DNA from: Hydrogenovibrio crunogenus
GTDB lineage: Bacteria > Pseudomonadota > Gammaproteobacteria > Thiomicrospirales > Thiomicrospiraceae
Reading direction: 5' to 3'
DNA: 64,000 nucleotides
NCBI RefSeq assembly: GCF_004786015.1
Contig: NZ_CP032096.1
Coordinates: forward strand, 1,860,001-1,924,000
The notes beneath the pieces were generated by a model. The model worked only from the letters and a program-made list of their open reading frames with translations, did no database searches and was not told where the DNA came from. Both the position numbers and the translations under genes were made by a program. Position 1 is the first letter of the stretch; the number at the start of each line of letters is the position of its first letter. Positions 5,912 through 11,340 of this stretch are shown here, one piece after another.

Positions 5912-5936
5912 AAAAAAGCCTCATTTAAGAGGCTTT
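5912..5936 (-). terminator. Factor-independent terminator of the MBL-fold gene operon
   Basis: Stem AAAGCCTC (5915-5922), six-base loop, and GAGGCTTT (5929-5936). On the minus strand the hairpin is followed by a run of T. It lies 22 bases past the stop of the MBL-fold gene. Confidence 0.8.
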
Positions 5937-5957: not shown

Positions 5958-7106
5958 TTATTCAAAGTTTTGCCCCAGATTCCCTCCGGTCATTTCACGG
6001 TAAATATGGCTAGCATTATTCTGATGGGTTTGTTCATACACCGACCGATGCTGATATTGAGATTGATCAATTGCTAAAGCGTCTTCTTCTGTGCCATCTT
6101 GATCAATAATTTTTTGCACCTCAGATTGCATGTACTTAAGATAGTCGTAAGTATCTCGTTTAATCGTATCCATATCAGTCGGTGCACCATGTCCTGGGAT
6201 GACAATAACATCGTTAGGAACCGATGCCATCATCCGTTCGAACGAGTCCACCCAATCTAACGTATTGGTATACGAAAACAGCGCCAGCATACGACTGTTA
6301 TAGGCTAAATCGCCCGTCAGTAATAATTTTCGTGACGGCACATACAACAAAGTTGAACCGGGCGTGTGCCCCGGACCGAAATTGAGAATTTCCACTGTTT
6401 CTCCGCCACCGACGTCTACAGTGATTTTATCGTCAAACGTTATGAATTGATCTGACACGTCGCGCGCGGTATGCGTTAAGACTTTGCCGACACGCGTCGC
6501 CCAGTGTGATTTAATGGCATCAAACCCTTGATGAAAGTCCTCATTGGCTCGCTGATGAGAATACAGGTTGTTAACACCGATATCGACCCAGTAACTGGCA
6601 CCCAGATAGGCATGACCCTGGCTGTTTTCAACCGCTACCCACTTGACTGGCTTGTGAGTGACTGTTCGAATCTGATGATGAAAAGAAGCCGCCACTGCAG
6701 GATTCGGTCCAGCGTTAAAGACGAACACGCCATCTTCAAACACCATAAAGGTCAAATTATTATTCAAACCATAATTGGAAGGATTGTGCCAAATCAAACT
6801 TCCGACCACTGTATAGACGTCATCCATCACTTTTTCGGGTTTCGGTAAAGGCAAAATGGGGCCGATATAACCGGCTTTTTGTTCTACTTTTGCCACTTCG
6901 TTCACGTAATTTTCATACACATTTTGTCCGATAGTGGTCGCCCCCACTTCTTTAGCATAAGCCGTAAACCCCATCAAATAAGGATCTGAATCTCCTGTCT
7001 GCTGTGATGCATAAATCATCGGCGATGCCGCTAAAATCAATGAAAAAACAATCAATGCTAAAAATATCAATCTCATTTGGGGTCTTTTACCTTCTAGTTC
7101 ATTCAT
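5958..7106 (-). CDS. Exported metallo-beta-lactamase-fold protein with degenerate metal motif
   Basis: A 382-residue protein with a hydrophobic N-terminal segment (about residues 11-32) ending in a plausible signal cleavage site (IYAS), so periplasmic or membrane-anchored. Parts of the MBL fold are clear: GPGHTPGSTLLY, LLLTGDLAYNS and VIPGHGAPTD give the later His, Asp and His ligands. The usual HxHxDH motif is replaced by NSQGHAYLGAS: the first His is Gln, and the Asp-His pair is Tyr-Leu. Full dinuclear zinc hydrolase chemistry is therefore doubtful. A good Shine-Dalgarno (AGGAG) lies eight bases before the start. It is the third gene of a TetR-headed operon, 11 bases after the small membrane protein gene. 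Substrate unknown. Confidence 0.8.
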   Translation of the reverse strand: MNELEGKRPQMRLIFLALIVFSLILAASPMIYASQQTGDSDPYLMGFTAYAKEVGATTIGQNVYENYVNEVAKVEQKAGYIGPILPLPKPEKVMDDVYTVVGSLIWHNPSNYGLNNNLTFMVFEDGVFVFNAGPNPAVAASFHHQIRTVTHKPVKWVAVENSQGHAYLGASYWVDIGVNNLYSHQRANEDFHQGFDAIKSHWATRVGKVLTHTARDVSDQFITFDDKITVDVGGGETVEILNFGPGHTPGSTLLYVPSRKLLLTGDLAYNSRMLALFSYTNTLDWVDSFERMMASVPNDVIVIPGHGAPTDMDTIKRDTYDYLKYMQSEVQKIIDQDGTEEDALAIDQSQYQHRSVYEQTHQNNASHIYREMTGGNLGQNFE

Positions 7107-7117
7107 TTTAATGACTC

Positions 7118-7522
7118 CTAATTTAATTTTTGTACACTGCCATCCACGGGCTTGGTGAAAAAAGTATCCATTAGCAATCCAATACTAAATTTTTGATGAT
7201 GATTCCACGGCATCAAAGACATAAATCGTGCTAAAAAACAGTAGTCAAACAATACCATCGCCGATGTGCCTAAAATAATCAGGTAATACAAAAAGAATAA
7301 CGGTGGATACAACGCCACAATCAATAAAGCCAAATAGGCTAAACGTACCTGAACAGGAAAGGCTGAAGCCGAAGGCGTTCGAGTATAAAAATGTATGACC
7401 TGAATAATATTAAAAGCAATCGCCGCTTCAATTCCATAAGGCATGCCAGCCACGCCGGCAATTAACAACACATCCGTAATAGCCCAATACCACCAAATTA
7501 AATCCATTTTTAAAACCATCAT
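7118..7522 (-). CDS. Small integral membrane protein of unknown function
   Basis: A 134-residue hydrophobic protein with about four membrane segments, roughly residues 7-25, 28-45, 60-78 and 80-98, and a polar C-terminus. I do not recognise the family. It starts after AAGGAG, at either of two adjacent ATG codons (7522 or 7519; the second has better spacing). It lies between the TetR regulator (11-base gap) and the MBL-fold protein (11-base gap), so the three are almost certainly one transcript. It may be a membrane partner of the exported MBL-fold protein; that is inference. Confidence 0.7.
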   Translation of the reverse strand: MMVLKMDLIWWYWAITDVLLIAGVAGMPYGIEAAIAFNIIQVIHFYTRTPSASAFPVQVRLAYLALLIVALYPPLFFLYYLIILGTSAMVLFDYCFLARFMSLMPWNHHQKFSIGLLMDTFFTKPVDGSVQKLN

Positions 7523-7533
7523 TGACTCCTTTG

Positions 7534-8127
7534 TCAGTCTGCTTTAATTGCGCGCCAAGCTGCGCGGGTGAGTTCATCTAAATGTTCGTTTAACGATTCT
7601 GGGGCTAAGCCATCCAAATGCAGTTGAATCAATCTCAGAATACTGCCGTACGCAATGGATGACGCCACCATTAAGTCCATCGCACGAATTTGACCCGACT
7701 GCTGCCCTTCCTCCAATACACCTCTTAACGTCATAAAAGGTTTGGAAGAACATAATGGTTGAATCGACGGCATAAACTCACGGTGCCGTGCATACAAAAT
7801 AAACTGCATCACATGAGGAAACTGTTCCGTCATCTCAAACAGCCATTTCGCTAAGTGATAGTATCGCTGCCAGCAATCAGAATACGTAGCCAATAAGGAC
7901 GCTTGGTCGGCTTCAATCTTCGCCAGCAACAAATCCATCAACGTCATCGCCAAATGCTCTTTATCTTTAAACGCATGATAAATGGATCCCGTACTCACCC
8001 CGGAGTGCGCCACCAAATCAGGAATCGATGTATTAAAGAACCCTTTTTCAACAAACAGTACCAACGCACTGTCTAAGATTCTTTTTTTCGATGCACTGAT
8101 ATCAGCTTCTTCAAAAAAATTGGCCAT
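7534..8127 (-). CDS. TetR/AcrR family transcriptional regulator
   Basis: A 197-residue repressor with the family's N-terminal helix-turn-helix (about residues 12-60): KKRILDSALVLFVEKGFF, then TSIPDLVAHSGVSTGSIYHAF. The C-terminal ligand-binding half is variable, as usual. GAGGAA lies a few bases before the ATG. It heads the operon with the membrane and MBL-fold genes. A pair of fused palindromes lies 22-51 bases upstream of the start, which strongly suggests autoregulation. The nearby RND pump is separated by a strong terminator and is upstream on the same strand, so control of the pump is possible but not shown. Confidence 0.92.
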   Translation of the reverse strand: MANFFEEADISASKKRILDSALVLFVEKGFFNTSIPDLVAHSGVSTGSIYHAFKDKEHLAMTLMDLLLAKIEADQASLLATYSDCWQRYYHLAKWLFEMTEQFPHVMQFILYARHREFMPSIQPLCSSKPFMTLRGVLEEGQQSGQIRAMDLMVASSIAYGSILRLIQLHLDGLAPESLNEHLDELTRAAWRAIKAD

Positions 8128-8148: not shown

Positions 8149-8178
8149 TAGAATGATTATTCTAGAATATATATTCTA
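8149..8178. promoter_or_regulatory. Tandem TetR-type operator (two fused palindromes)
   Basis: Two perfect 16-base palindromes of the form TAGAAT-N4-ATTCTA occupy 8149-8164 and 8163-8178 and share a TA. The spacers are GATT and ATAT. Their size, symmetry and position just before a tetR start codon fit a double operator bound by two repressor dimers. The region is AT-rich and probably includes the promoter. Confidence 0.75.
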
Positions 8179-8241
8179 ATTCCAATCAAATATTTTAATG
8201 AGCTGAAGATTTCAACTCGTGATACCTATTTCAAGTCATAA

Positions 8242-8267
8242 AAAAACGCCCAGGCCTGGGCGTTTTT
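8242..8267. terminator. Loopless palindromic terminator after the RND pump
   Basis: A perfect 26-base palindrome: AAAAACGCCCAGG followed directly by its reverse complement, centred on CCAGGCCTGG (8250-8259). A and T runs on both sides allow it to end transcription on either strand. It lies eight bases past the RND permease stop and insulates the tetR promoter. Confidence 0.85.
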
Positions 8268-8274
8268 AAGGAGA

Positions 8275-11200
8275 TTAACCCGACTGATTGGACTGCGGAA
8301 TACGGAACCACAATGCATATAAAGCAGGCAGGAAAAGCAGCGTCAGCAAGGTACCGACTCCAATACCGCCAATCAACACATACGCTAAAGGCCCCCAAAA
8401 CGTATTCGTGGTGAGTGGAATAAAGGCCAAAATCGCGGCCAAAGCCGTTAATAAAACCGGTCTTGCGCGGCGTAGCGTCGCATCAATCAAAGCTTCTTTC
8501 GGTGCCATATTCTGCTTTTGGTTATCATTGATTTGCCCCACCAAAATCAGCGTATTTCGCATTAAAATACCCGCTAATCCGATCAACCCCAAGGTGGCGA
8601 CAAAACCAAACGGCTGTGAAAACAGCAACAATGCCGCCACGGCACCAATCAACCCCAACGGAGCGGTCACTAACACCATAAACGTCCCTAGAAAACTTTG
8701 CATATTCAACATGACCAAGGTCACCATCAATAACACCATAACGGGCATCAAAGTCTGAATAGAAGCTTGTGCCTTACCAGATTGCTCCACAGAGCCGCCG
8801 ATTTCTAATCGAACGCCATCCGGGAGTGACTCCCGCAAATTCGCCATATCTTTCCAAATCGCCATGGTGACATCAGGTGGTTGTGCGCCTTCCACTTCAG
8901 CATTGATATTAATATATGGCGTTCGATTACGACGTTTTAATACCGGATTGTTAAACACAACATTTAAGTCCGCCAATTGTTGCAACGGGACTTTGGAACC
9001 ATTCTGAGTTTCAATTGGCAAACTTTGTAGCTGTTTAAGCGCATCACCGGATGAGAATTGGGTAAAGCTAGTCAATAGGATACGTCGGGTATTTTCACGC
9101 AATTCCGCTTCCGTTTGTCCTCTTAAAGCCTGTTGCAATTGTTGCGACAGATTCAACGGTGTCACCCCTAATAAAGCCAGACGATCCAAATCATAAGACA
9201 ACTCGATATCAGGACTCTTTTCACCCCATTCCAAATGCGGATCATAAATATGTTCATTCTCAGTCATTTTTTGACGCACTTGCTCGCCGACGTCTCGCAA
9301 CACATTCAAGTCATCTCCCATCACACGAAAAGTGACAGGCCAAACCACTGGCGGTCCATAAAGTAAGGCATGCACCCGAACACGGGCCGCATCAAAATGA
9401 CCGGCTGCGATATAGTCTTGTAACCGCGCTTTTAGACGGTTCCTCGCTTCGGCATCGGAAGTAACAATAATCAGCTTCGCAAACGCGGGATTAGGCAGTT
9501 CTGGATTCAGCGCCAAGAAAAAACGAGGCGCTCCCTGCCCAATGTAACTGCTTAAGGTTTTGACCTCAGGTTGCTGACGTACATAATTTTCGATTTGATG
9601 AGACAAATCATCCGTGACTTGCTGACTGGACCCTTCTGGCAAATAAATATCTACCATCAATTCAGGTCGATCGGAACTTGGGAAAAACTGTTTTTCCACC
9701 AGCTTTGCCATACCGAACGTGGACACTAAAAAAATACCCAATGTCACGCCAACAACGGTTTTACGATAACGCACACAACGGTGCACCCAGGTCGATAAAA
9801 ATCGTGTTAACCGATTATCGGGCGCGCCACTGTCGTGCACGTTTTGCGTTTCAACATTCGGCAACAACTTAAAGCCCAAATAAGGTGTAAAAGTCACCGC
9901 CACCAACCAAGATAACAGCAAAGCGAACGCTAGGATCCAGAAAATATTACCGGCGTATTCTCCAACGTTGGAGGCGGCGAAACCAATCGGTACAAAGCCG
10001 ACCACTGTCACCAGCGTGCCGAATAACATAGGGGAAGCCGTCACCGTCCACGCATAAGCGGCTGCTTTAGTTCTTTCAAGCCCTTCTTCCATTTTCACCA
10101 GCATCATTTCAATGGCGATAATGGCATCATCTACCAGCAGGCCTAAAGCTAAAATCAACGCCCCCAGAGTAATCCGGTCCAGGTTTTTCCCCGTTATTTG
10201 CATTAAGAAAAAGGTCAAAGCCAGAGTGAGTGGAATCGCCAGAGCTACTACAATTCCAGCACGCCAACCCAATGCCAGAAAACTCACCGCAAGCACAACC
10301 AGCACCGCCATTAAAAACTTCAACTGAAAGGCATTCACTGCTAACGCAATAGCATCACCCTGATTGGTGACTTTTTCCAAAGTAACGCCTTTAGGCAAAT
10401 TCGGTTGCCAGTTTTGAGTAAAAGTCGACAAACGGTCTGACAAATCCAGACCGTTATGGCCTTTTTTCATCACGACCCCCAATAACAAAGCTTCTTGCCC
10501 CTGGTTTCGAATTTTAAAATGACTCGGTTTCTTAAATCCTCTTGAAACAGTGGCAAAATCTGACAAATGCATGACTTGCCCATTCACTGCAATCGGTACC
10601 TGGCGAATCTCTTCCAGCGAATCCCTCGCTGCGGTTTGGCGTAGATAAACCCGAGGCCCAATGGTTTCTACAAACCCAGAGGGGGCAATCGATTGATAAG
10701 CATTTAGATTTTGCAGAAGTTGCTGCTGCGTTACCCCCAATGCTTTCATTTTGGCTGCATTAAAAGTGATTTGAATCTGCTGCGTCTGCTCTCCCAGCAA
10801 ATTGACCTTTTGCACCCCGTTCACTCGCAACAGCGCATCCCGTGTTTTTTCCGCGGTCTGCAACCAATCTGCATAATTGAGGTCGCCCTGAGTTAACGAG
10901 TAAAGTGTAAAATAAACATCGGCGAAATCGTCATTCACAAAGGGCCCTTGCACTCCTTGAGGCAAAGCACCTTTCAAATCCAACATTCTCTTACGAACTT
11001 GATAAAACTGATCTTCAACAGCTTCGGGAGGCGTATATTCCTTAAAGGTCACCAGCATCGTCACTTCACCGGGGCGAGCAGTGGTTTCCACAAAATCGAA
11101 ATACTCCACTTGTTGTAGTTTTTTCTCAATAGGGTCGGCGACCTGATTTTGCATTTGCTCTGCCGTTGCACCCGGCCAATTGGCAGACACCACCATCACT

Positions 11201-11340
11201 TTAATAGTAAAGTTAGGGTCTTCGGCACGCCCCAAATTAATAAACGAAACTGTTCCCACCAGAATGGACAACAAAATAAAATACAAAGTAACCGCTTTAT
11301 GCTTAACCGCTAATTCCGAAAGGTTAAAACGCTGCATCAT
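8275..11340 (-). CDS. RND efflux pump permease (AcrB/HAE1-like)
   Basis: A 1021-residue inner-membrane proton-driven exporter, of normal length for the family. It has a first membrane segment near residues 17-37, a large periplasmic loop, and a second membrane block. The proton-relay pair appears near residue 400 in LGLLVDDAIIAIEMML. The second half repeats the topology (PLGLIGAVAALLLF, GLAGILMRNTLILVGQ). The start overlaps the stop of the adaptor gene by four bases, so the two are translationally coupled. No TolC-like outer-membrane gene is nearby, so a shared TolC elsewhere is likely. The substrate cannot be told from sequence; the variable porter loops set it. Confidence 0.92.
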   Translation of the reverse strand: MMQRFNLSELAVKHKAVTLYFILLSILVGTVSFINLGRAEDPNFTIKVMVVSANWPGATAEQMQNQVADPIEKKLQQVEYFDFVETTARPGEVTMLVTFKEYTPPEAVEDQFYQVRKRMLDLKGALPQGVQGPFVNDDFADVYFTLYSLTQGDLNYADWLQTAEKTRDALLRVNGVQKVNLLGEQTQQIQITFNAAKMKALGVTQQQLLQNLNAYQSIAPSGFVETIGPRVYLRQTAARDSLEEIRQVPIAVNGQVMHLSDFATVSRGFKKPSHFKIRNQGQEALLLGVVMKKGHNGLDLSDRLSTFTQNWQPNLPKGVTLEKVTNQGDAIALAVNAFQLKFLMAVLVVLAVSFLALGWRAGIVVALAIPLTLALTFFLMQITGKNLDRITLGALILALGLLVDDAIIAIEMMLVKMEEGLERTKAAAYAWTVTASPMLFGTLVTVVGFVPIGFAASNVGEYAGNIFWILAFALLLSWLVAVTFTPYLGFKLLPNVETQNVHDSGAPDNRLTRFLSTWVHRCVRYRKTVVGVTLGIFLVSTFGMAKLVEKQFFPSSDRPELMVDIYLPEGSSQQVTDDLSHQIENYVRQQPEVKTLSSYIGQGAPRFFLALNPELPNPAFAKLIIVTSDAEARNRLKARLQDYIAAGHFDAARVRVHALLYGPPVVWPVTFRVMGDDLNVLRDVGEQVRQKMTENEHIYDPHLEWGEKSPDIELSYDLDRLALLGVTPLNLSQQLQQALRGQTEAELRENTRRILLTSFTQFSSGDALKQLQSLPIETQNGSKVPLQQLADLNVVFNNPVLKRRNRTPYININAEVEGAQPPDVTMAIWKDMANLRESLPDGVRLEIGGSVEQSGKAQASIQTLMPVMVLLMVTLVMLNMQSFLGTFMVLVTAPLGLIGAVAALLLFSQPFGFVATLGLIGLAGILMRNTLILVGQINDNQKQNMAPKEALIDATLRRARPVLLTALAAILAFIPLTTNTFWGPLAYVLIGGIGVGTLLTLLFLPALYALWFRIPQSNQSG

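Follow-up and report, generated by a model that had tools for sequence, protein, structure and literature searches.

A SoxH-like metallo-beta-lactamase-fold gene with a conserved motif exchange in a probable TetR operon of Hydrogenovibrio crunogenus

Gene layout of the locus

We analysed a stretch of 64,000 nucleotides (the window) from Hydrogenovibrio crunogenus, whose genome is a single contig of 2,453,259 bases. A TetR-type regulator, a small membrane protein and a metallo-beta-lactamase (MBL)-fold protein are encoded on one strand of the window, in this order and with gaps of 11 bases. The genes and the features that surround them are the following:

5912 to 5936, minus strand: hairpin and T run after the MBL gene (AAAGCCTC-ttaaat-GAGGCTTT), likely terminator, recognized by eye
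5958 to 7106, minus strand: MBL gene, SoxH-like, 382 amino acids; ENSQGHAYLG motif (residues 160-169); H165, D266 and H306 (and H247) as putative ligands
7118 to 7522, minus strand: membrane protein gene, 134 amino acids, helical; below the cut-offs of all Pfam and NCBIfam families; optional partner
7534 to 8127, minus strand: tetR; PF00440 at 3.5e-13 and 49.6 bits against a cut-off of 24; conserved C126 (PxCSSxPF)
8150 to 8177, no strand assigned: tandem operator-like inverted repeats (8150-8163 and 8164-8177), AGAATNNNNATTCT, just upstream of tetR
8240 to 8266, minus strand: hairpin around CGCCCAGGCCTGGGCG with a T run, in the gap that separates tetR from the RND-type gene; likely to terminate the upstream unit; its inverted repeat was found by scan

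The reading frames of the MBL and the membrane protein are intact and lie where the initial annotation had placed them. Two genes on the same strand flank the putative operon: an RND-type gene upstream (8275-11340), recognized by eye, and downstream a ChrA-type transporter gene that matches PF02417 at 2e-65. A scan with a terminator consensus pattern listed neither of the two hairpins (5912 to 5936 and 8240 to 8266).

Fold and metal motif of the MBL protein

The MBL protein matches PF00753 (Lactamase_B) at 3.8e-07, over the cut-off, and this match spans residues 190-306 only. Its AF2 model (pLDDT 85.5 overall, and 88-99 in blocks of ten over residues 91-380) and the structural matches of this model, which include chlorothalonil dehalogenase 6uxu (Z 31.9, rmsd 2.3, 279 aligned), 8d2z (Z 31.4) and CphA (Z 26.0), assign it to the MBL fold. 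Moreover, hydropathy alone reveals an N-terminal hydrophobic segment (residues 13-31, Kyte-Doolittle maximum 2.68), and the protein is probably exported. The curated cut-offs for B1 and B2 beta-lactamases are not reached (45.4 of 200 and 41.3 of 240 bits, respectively).

The HxHxDH motif of dinuclear MBL hydrolases is absent from the protein and is replaced by ENSQGHAYLG, as had been noticed before. The register of the motif was set by gapless alignment to HxHxDH-containing relatives, as in the pairing of the window-type NTHTHLDHALGN with the canonical NENGQGHAMLGN, and to CphA-type enzymes, whose N-Y-H-T-D-R aligns to N-x-Q-G-H-A in the same register. In standard MBL residue numbering, all four motif positions are exchanged: H116 to N161, H118 to Q163, D120 to H165 and H121 to A166. 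The initial annotation, which had counted the first His, the Asp and the following His as lost, came close to this result; however, none of the four positions is preserved, and the single surviving motif His (H165) occupies the position of Asp120. It had rightly recognized that the other three ligands are retained: H247, D266 and H306 correspond to positions 196, 221 and 263. In an alignment of 42 rows E160, N161, Q163, H165, H247, D266 and H306 are all invariant. The same 42 rows invariably have Asn131 in place of the Asp that ends the canonical second strand (VVVIDA). Since H165 takes the place of Asp120 and H247, D266 and H306 are kept, a rewired, mononuclear metal site appears likely.

The same exchanges could have a different meaning, namely that the protein is conserved but non-catalytic and uses its modified site to bind or sense a ligand or a metal without turnover. 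Throughout the clade, the Asp that activates water and the two histidines of the Zn1 motif have been lost, QGHA does not occur in any of the PDB alignments printed over the motif region (those of 8d2z and four B2-type lactamases), and the parts of the literature examined contain no assay of a QGHA member. Against this stands the invariance of H165, H247, D266 and H306. We consider such a binding-only protein the likeliest alternative, albeit an improbable one.

Conservation of the motif and family tree

A search with the whole MBL protein found a match in 44 of 55 genomes. Our motif alignment consists of 70 hits, that is all 52 hits below E 1e-70 and a fetched subset of 18 weaker ones. All of the 52 come from the bacterial family to which the window belongs, Thiomicrospiraceae, and they were sorted into the groups A (n=13, the orthologues of the window gene), A' (n=6), B (n=18), C (n=11) and D (n=4). 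Asn, Gln, His and Ala occupy the four motif positions in each of these 52 close relatives. The Gly between Gln and His is replaced by Ser in the four group D rows, and the motif overall reads N-x-Q-[G/S]-H-A. One contig scan was seeded in part by the motif, so that its hits cannot count as independent evidence that the motif is conserved; neither the whole-protein search nor the profile search was motif-seeded.

The genome of the window keeps three paralogues that bear the motif. Moreover, the MBL gene is under purifying selection: dN/dS between two orthologues (L079 and L080) is 0.034. This pair was used for all such figures, because dS against the window sequence is saturated. That the gene is a paralogue of an ordinary metallo-beta-lactamase-type hydrolase in the course of decay, which might have been suspected from a Pfam match restricted to residues 190-306, has next to no probability in view of the motif in 52/52 relatives, the low dN/dS and the retained paralogues. 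Thus, the suppositions that the gene is maintained intact and that the motif is a subfamily trait are borne out, and its opposite, a single-strain decay among homologues with a normal motif, is rejected.

We then inferred a tree from the profile hits at E 1e-25 or better, from which rows with fewer than 200 aligned residues and identical rows were dropped. It comprises 124 domains, of which 91 have the signature NQHA, three NQHS and one NDHA. With midpoint rooting the ten HxHxDH sequences did not form one group, and the tree was then rooted by hand on L248. Rooted in this way, the 95 signature domains form one clade (FastTree support 0.968) and 18 GQHR proteins form another (support 0.983). 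The 52 tips of the types found in the family of the window (12 A, 6 A', 17 B, 11 C and 6 D) are a clade within the 95 with a support of 1.0; A and A' are joined with a support of just 0.621. Two variants may be mentioned. L065:4227-5228 has Asp for Gln at position 118 (ENGDLHATTGN) and is the sole such row among the 95, and in a SoxH-related protein of L073 (G052) the residues at positions 120 and 121 are Ala and Arg, respectively (NTNSQAARHMGN).

Matches to the window MBL were also found in 74 plasmid records, and the near relatives among them include the second MBL of sox clusters. The Paracoccus ferrooxidans cluster has the order soxYZABC-cytochrome-cytochrome-flavoprotein-MBL-MBL, followed by a sulfurtransferase and a YeeE gene, and the second MBL has the same position in the sox clusters of Ruegeria and Paracoccus sp. 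SMMA_5_TC. Because it follows the first MBL gene, we name it SoxH from its position; a passage of PMC11034169 lists soxE, F, G and H for such clusters. The genes at the SoxH position carry ENGQGHAMLG or ENGQGHSMLG and match the family profile at E 2e-113 to 2e-123; one from Paracoccus, with ENGQGHAMLG, does so at 1.7e-115 and is 33.7% identical to the window MBL. The first MBL of the sox clusters (HGHPDH or HAHPDH) stayed above E 1e-3 with this profile in three out of three cases. Outside sox clusters, the plasmid relatives L254, L255 and L257 are of the GGQDHR type, and that of Limimaricola (L252) is of the QGHA type.

The window MBL has HxHxDH replaced by N-x-Q-[GS]-H-[AS] and groups with sox-cluster SoxH, apart from both the HxHxDH and the GQHR proteins. 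It belongs almost certainly to the SoxH-like family, the QGHA clade. Its gene does not lie after soxF and soxG in a sox cluster, as that of SoxH proper does. Judged by these alignments, the apparently broken motif is a signature conserved among the SoxH-like proteins of sulfur oxidisers and is the same as in sox-cluster SoxH, a point that goes beyond the initial annotation. What we describe is a new paralogous branch, with its regulatory setting, of a known family. The label 'MBL fold metallo-hydrolase', combined with a seemingly broken motif, hides this conserved family, and a likely misreading is hereby corrected.

The TetR partner and its upstream repeat

The product of tetR is a TetR family member by its PF00440 match, and its C-terminal domain matches TetR_C_10 and, under the cut-off, the HI_0893 type. 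A TetR homologue is encoded within 2.5 kb and on the same strand in 19/19 A and A' loci, but in none of the 33 B, C and D loci; for L017, L025, L027, L030, L032 and L033 this count is based on flanks of 1.5 kb only, and L034 is cut. Fifteen of the 19 neighbours are strong matches (E below 1e-50). The remaining four (L017, L085, L086 and L089) are weak, at about 1e-6, and are found without the strict repeat. TetR is thus the steady partner of the A and A' SoxH-like genes. Its dN/dS between L079 and L080 is 0.035.

All 22 aligned strong TetR rows, which represent 21 genes because the window TetR is included twice (once as a fragment), have a conserved cysteine in a PxC[SA]xxxF-type context. A profile search recovered TetR orthologues at E 1e-40 or better in 36/369 gammaproteobacterial genomes, and loci from 22 of these 36 were inspected. 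The cysteine motif is present in 21 of these 22 further loci, and in 12 a secreted DsrE-type gene is close by on the same strand; one of the 12, L208, is counted by construction, being among the three sequences in the DsrE model. The membrane protein is encoded in two of the 22 (L207 and L208), and a SoxH-profile hit on the opposite strand occurs in two (L306 and L320).

The DsrE assignment was confirmed by Pfam for L208, L129 and L133, and seven aligned DsrE proteins have one Cys in common. Three out of seven loci titled Thioalkalivibrio (L129, L132 and L133) encode the same TetR, a SoxH-like protein and two secreted DsrE proteins, all on one strand; the other four (L127, L135, L142 and L174), some of them with short flanks, show no DsrE of the TetR-linked type. 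This type was detected in 4/128 sources scanned, the three loci just named and L052. In L052, a same-genus genome, about 2.5 kb separate the gene (8613-9137) from a SoxH-like gene of group C. The genome of the window contains two weak matches to this DsrE type, far from the operon.

In group A the repeat upstream of tetR has the form AGAAT-N4-ATTCT, and in the six A' loci it is AGAATGAA-N2-TTCATTCT. The general pattern, AGAAY-N4/N8-RTTCT, has an exact match upstream of tetR in 25/40 loci and a match with at most one mismatch in 31/40, where random 200-mers drawn from these loci lead one to expect 0.36 and 1.26, respectively; nine loci are without it, and the four weak TetRs are excluded from the 40. 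Many of the loci, close relatives among them, had been viewed before the pattern was framed; although the excess is genuine, its magnitude should therefore not be read as a probability. The strict AGAAT form has four exact sites in the 2.45-Mb genome, two of them at tetR, and a reversed control pattern has one. Of the other two sites, one falls within an ORF, and the other overlaps the end of an ORF that looks Crp/Fnr-like by eye. The exact repeat sites give no sign of a wider regulon in this genome. With one mismatch the repeat is not enriched in the window (six occurrences compared to 3.36 in shuffles, 10/100 of which reach six), where only the exact tandem pair stands out.

We conclude that the SoxH-like gene very probably has a dedicated TetR operon. 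A TetR at the head of the gene row had been recognized from the outset, and a conserved upstream repeat can now be added. The surroundings might instead speak for efflux or metal resistance, with the TetR controlling the RND-type pump upstream or the chromate transporter downstream, and the MBL detoxifying a xenobiotic. The same-strand neighbours, the TetR_C_10 and HI_0893-type matches and the presence of chlorothalonil dehalogenase among the best structural neighbours would fit this idea. However, hairpins, in part identified by eye, separate the operon from both neighbours; among the 12 group A loci compared for gene order, a ChrA-type neighbour occurs in three and an RND-sized gene in one; and while the tetR pair makes up half of the four exact genome sites, the other two are not at RND or chrA genes. 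We therefore regard efflux or metal resistance as very unlikely, and joint regulation with the RND or ChrA gene is not supported by any of these three lines of evidence.

The membrane protein is an optional partner

The membrane protein gene had been proposed to form a small conserved system with the MBL gene. This part of the initial annotation is not supported: the gene is present in 7/13 group A loci and in none of the 39 other paralogue loci, and the protein family is scattered over 23/369 gammaproteobacterial genomes. It is ruled out as an obligatory partner. The combinations vary, since L208 encodes TetR, the membrane protein and DsrE, with no SoxH in the stretch scanned, and L089 has the order SoxH-membrane protein-DUF4395. 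Seven aligned rows share a C-terminal TFFSKPVxGSVQ, and dN/dS between L079 and L080 is 0.064. The structural model, built from a two-row input, is poor (pLDDT 56.3) and shows helices at residues 8-24, 30-48, 54-70, 73-103 and 114-122.

Sulfur context of the SoxH-like family

Whereas the SoxH-like proteins of the window's family are unfused, three out of three scanned members of 439-499 amino acids, all distant relatives (L097, L133 and L177), have an N-terminal rhodanese domain according to Pfam. Further rhodanese fusions were named by eye, and those that were read have a CxxxxRS-type loop. Unlike these, L145:4026-5846 encodes a SoxH-like domain fused to a dienelactone-hydrolase domain (Pfam); by length alone, L140, L144, L156, L157, L159, L162 and L166 possibly encode the same type of fusion.

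A SoxB-cluster neighbour was found within the fetched flanks of 5/58 distant loci (L121-L178), namely L148, L160 and L176, which are from Marinobacter, and L158 and L177. The SoxB model confirmed it for L177 only, with 449 of 550 bits for a sequence cut at the contig end. L168, L170 and L171 share a flavoprotein, which in L168 matches the sulfide quinone reductase model at 1e-22, under the cut-off. Two further arrangements were observed. In L169 an ordinary HYHADH MBL (1-726) immediately precedes a longer SoxH-like gene, an arrangement reminiscent of the MBL pair in Paracoccus sox clusters. Five of the six group B loci compared for gene order (L039, L041, L043, L047 and L090) have, about 1.1-1.3 kb upstream and on the same strand, a gene recognized by eye as an AI-2E-type membrane transporter.

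None of the neighbours of the window operon is a known sulfur gene. On the contig, soxB (at 1710558) and soxY (at 685176) are single genes, 0.15 Mb and 1.2 Mb, respectively, from the MBL gene (at 1865961). Since SoxB is present in this genome, SoxH would not be needed to replace it; this, the lack of sulfur genes next to the operon, the distance from soxB and soxY, the weak and remote DsrE matches and the absence of a fusion count against a role in sulfur metabolism. A passage in the literature cites a 2020 study for SoxH as a substitute of SoxB in Sulfurimonas CVO, and questions this role in the presence of soxB. In Sulfurovum, soxH1 and soxH2 are expressed with sox genes, and SoxH is suggested to free sulfate from SoxY (passages of PMC10045233); sulfate release from SoxY by SoxH is reported as a citation (a passage of PMC11237559); and the ped cluster is listed with a rhodanese, a carrier resembling SoxYZ and a SoxH-like protein (a passage of PMC12997753). 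The sulfur link, which had been one of several initial suggestions, is well supported by the kinship with SoxH, the rhodanese fusions and the soxB and DsrE neighbours of relatives, and sulfur chemistry is a reasonably probable role of the window MBL. The fusions and the soxB neighbourhoods also point to a catalytic step, without proving one, and in this respect speak against a protein that only binds or senses.

Proposed function of the operon

A periplasmic SoxH-like hydrolase in a sulfur-responsive operon is, as a whole, the explanation that we favour, if with measured confidence. The MBL gene would encode a periplasmic SoxH-like protein, in whose clade HxHxDH is exchanged for N-x-Q-G-H-A, and the alignment suggests a mononuclear metal site of His165, Asp266 and His306, together with His247. 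This site may hydrolyse or transfer a sulfonate or sulfane-sulfur group on a carrier cysteine of the SoxY, rhodanese or DsrE type, a reaction that would be comparable to the sulfate-releasing role given or proposed for SoxH in passages of two papers (PMC10045233 and PMC11237559). This exact reaction is a tentative proposal. The TetR would repress its own operon, consisting of tetR, the optional membrane gene and the soxH-like gene, by binding to the AGAAY-N4/N8-RTTCT repeats upstream of tetR, and might be released once its conserved cysteine has reacted with a sulfur species. The membrane protein would be an accessory.

It is conceivable, though doubtful, that gammaproteobacterial sulfur oxidisers have a new regulon, in which a one-cysteine TetR acts as a sulfane-sulfur sensor on AGAAY-N4/N8-RTTCT and induces a SoxH-like MBL, a secreted DsrE, a rhodanese-SoxH and a small membrane protein, and that the SoxH clade is a group of mononuclear His-Asp-His metalloenzymes distinct from dinuclear MBLs. 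If true, the latter would give SoxH a testable mechanism. Among the matches listed, no paper describes a TetR-SoxH or TetR-DsrE operon in its title or at the start of its abstract. The consistent rewiring of the motif and the self-contained unit found in some sulfur oxidisers, with a candidate operator and a conserved regulator cysteine, allow direct tests of SoxH function and of its signal.

Comparison with known systems

The best NCBIfam matches of the window MBL are the SoxH-related quinoprotein relay zinc metallohydrolases TIGR04558 and TIGR04559 (88.1 and 86.1 bits). Membership is rejected, as these scores are far below the cut-offs of 300 and 280 bits. The sister clade of 18 proteins (NTGGQDHRWLGN) leans to TIGR04558, and its tested member, L066, is also below the cut-off with 126.6 bits. 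This clade has Gly116, Gln118, His120 and Arg121, and an Asp where the QGHA clade has Asn131. The subclass B2 lactamase CphA (1x8i and 3f9o) has the fold and an Asn at position 116 in common with the window MBL but, unlike it, has His118, Asp120 and Arg121.

The rhodanese-SoxH fusions have the same motif and belong to the same clade as the window MBL, which lacks the N-terminal rhodanese. In one such fusion locus, L133, the same TetR and a near-consensus repeat adjoin, and the DsrE neighbours found there are absent at the window. Finally, SoxH of the sox clusters of Paracoccus and Ruegeria shares the MBL family, the ENGQGH[AS]MLG motif and the tree clade with the window MBL. The two are about 34% identical, and the window protein has a longer N-terminal region. 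Whereas sox-cluster SoxH is the second of two MBL genes in its cluster, the window gene is part of a TetR operon, away from the sox genes.
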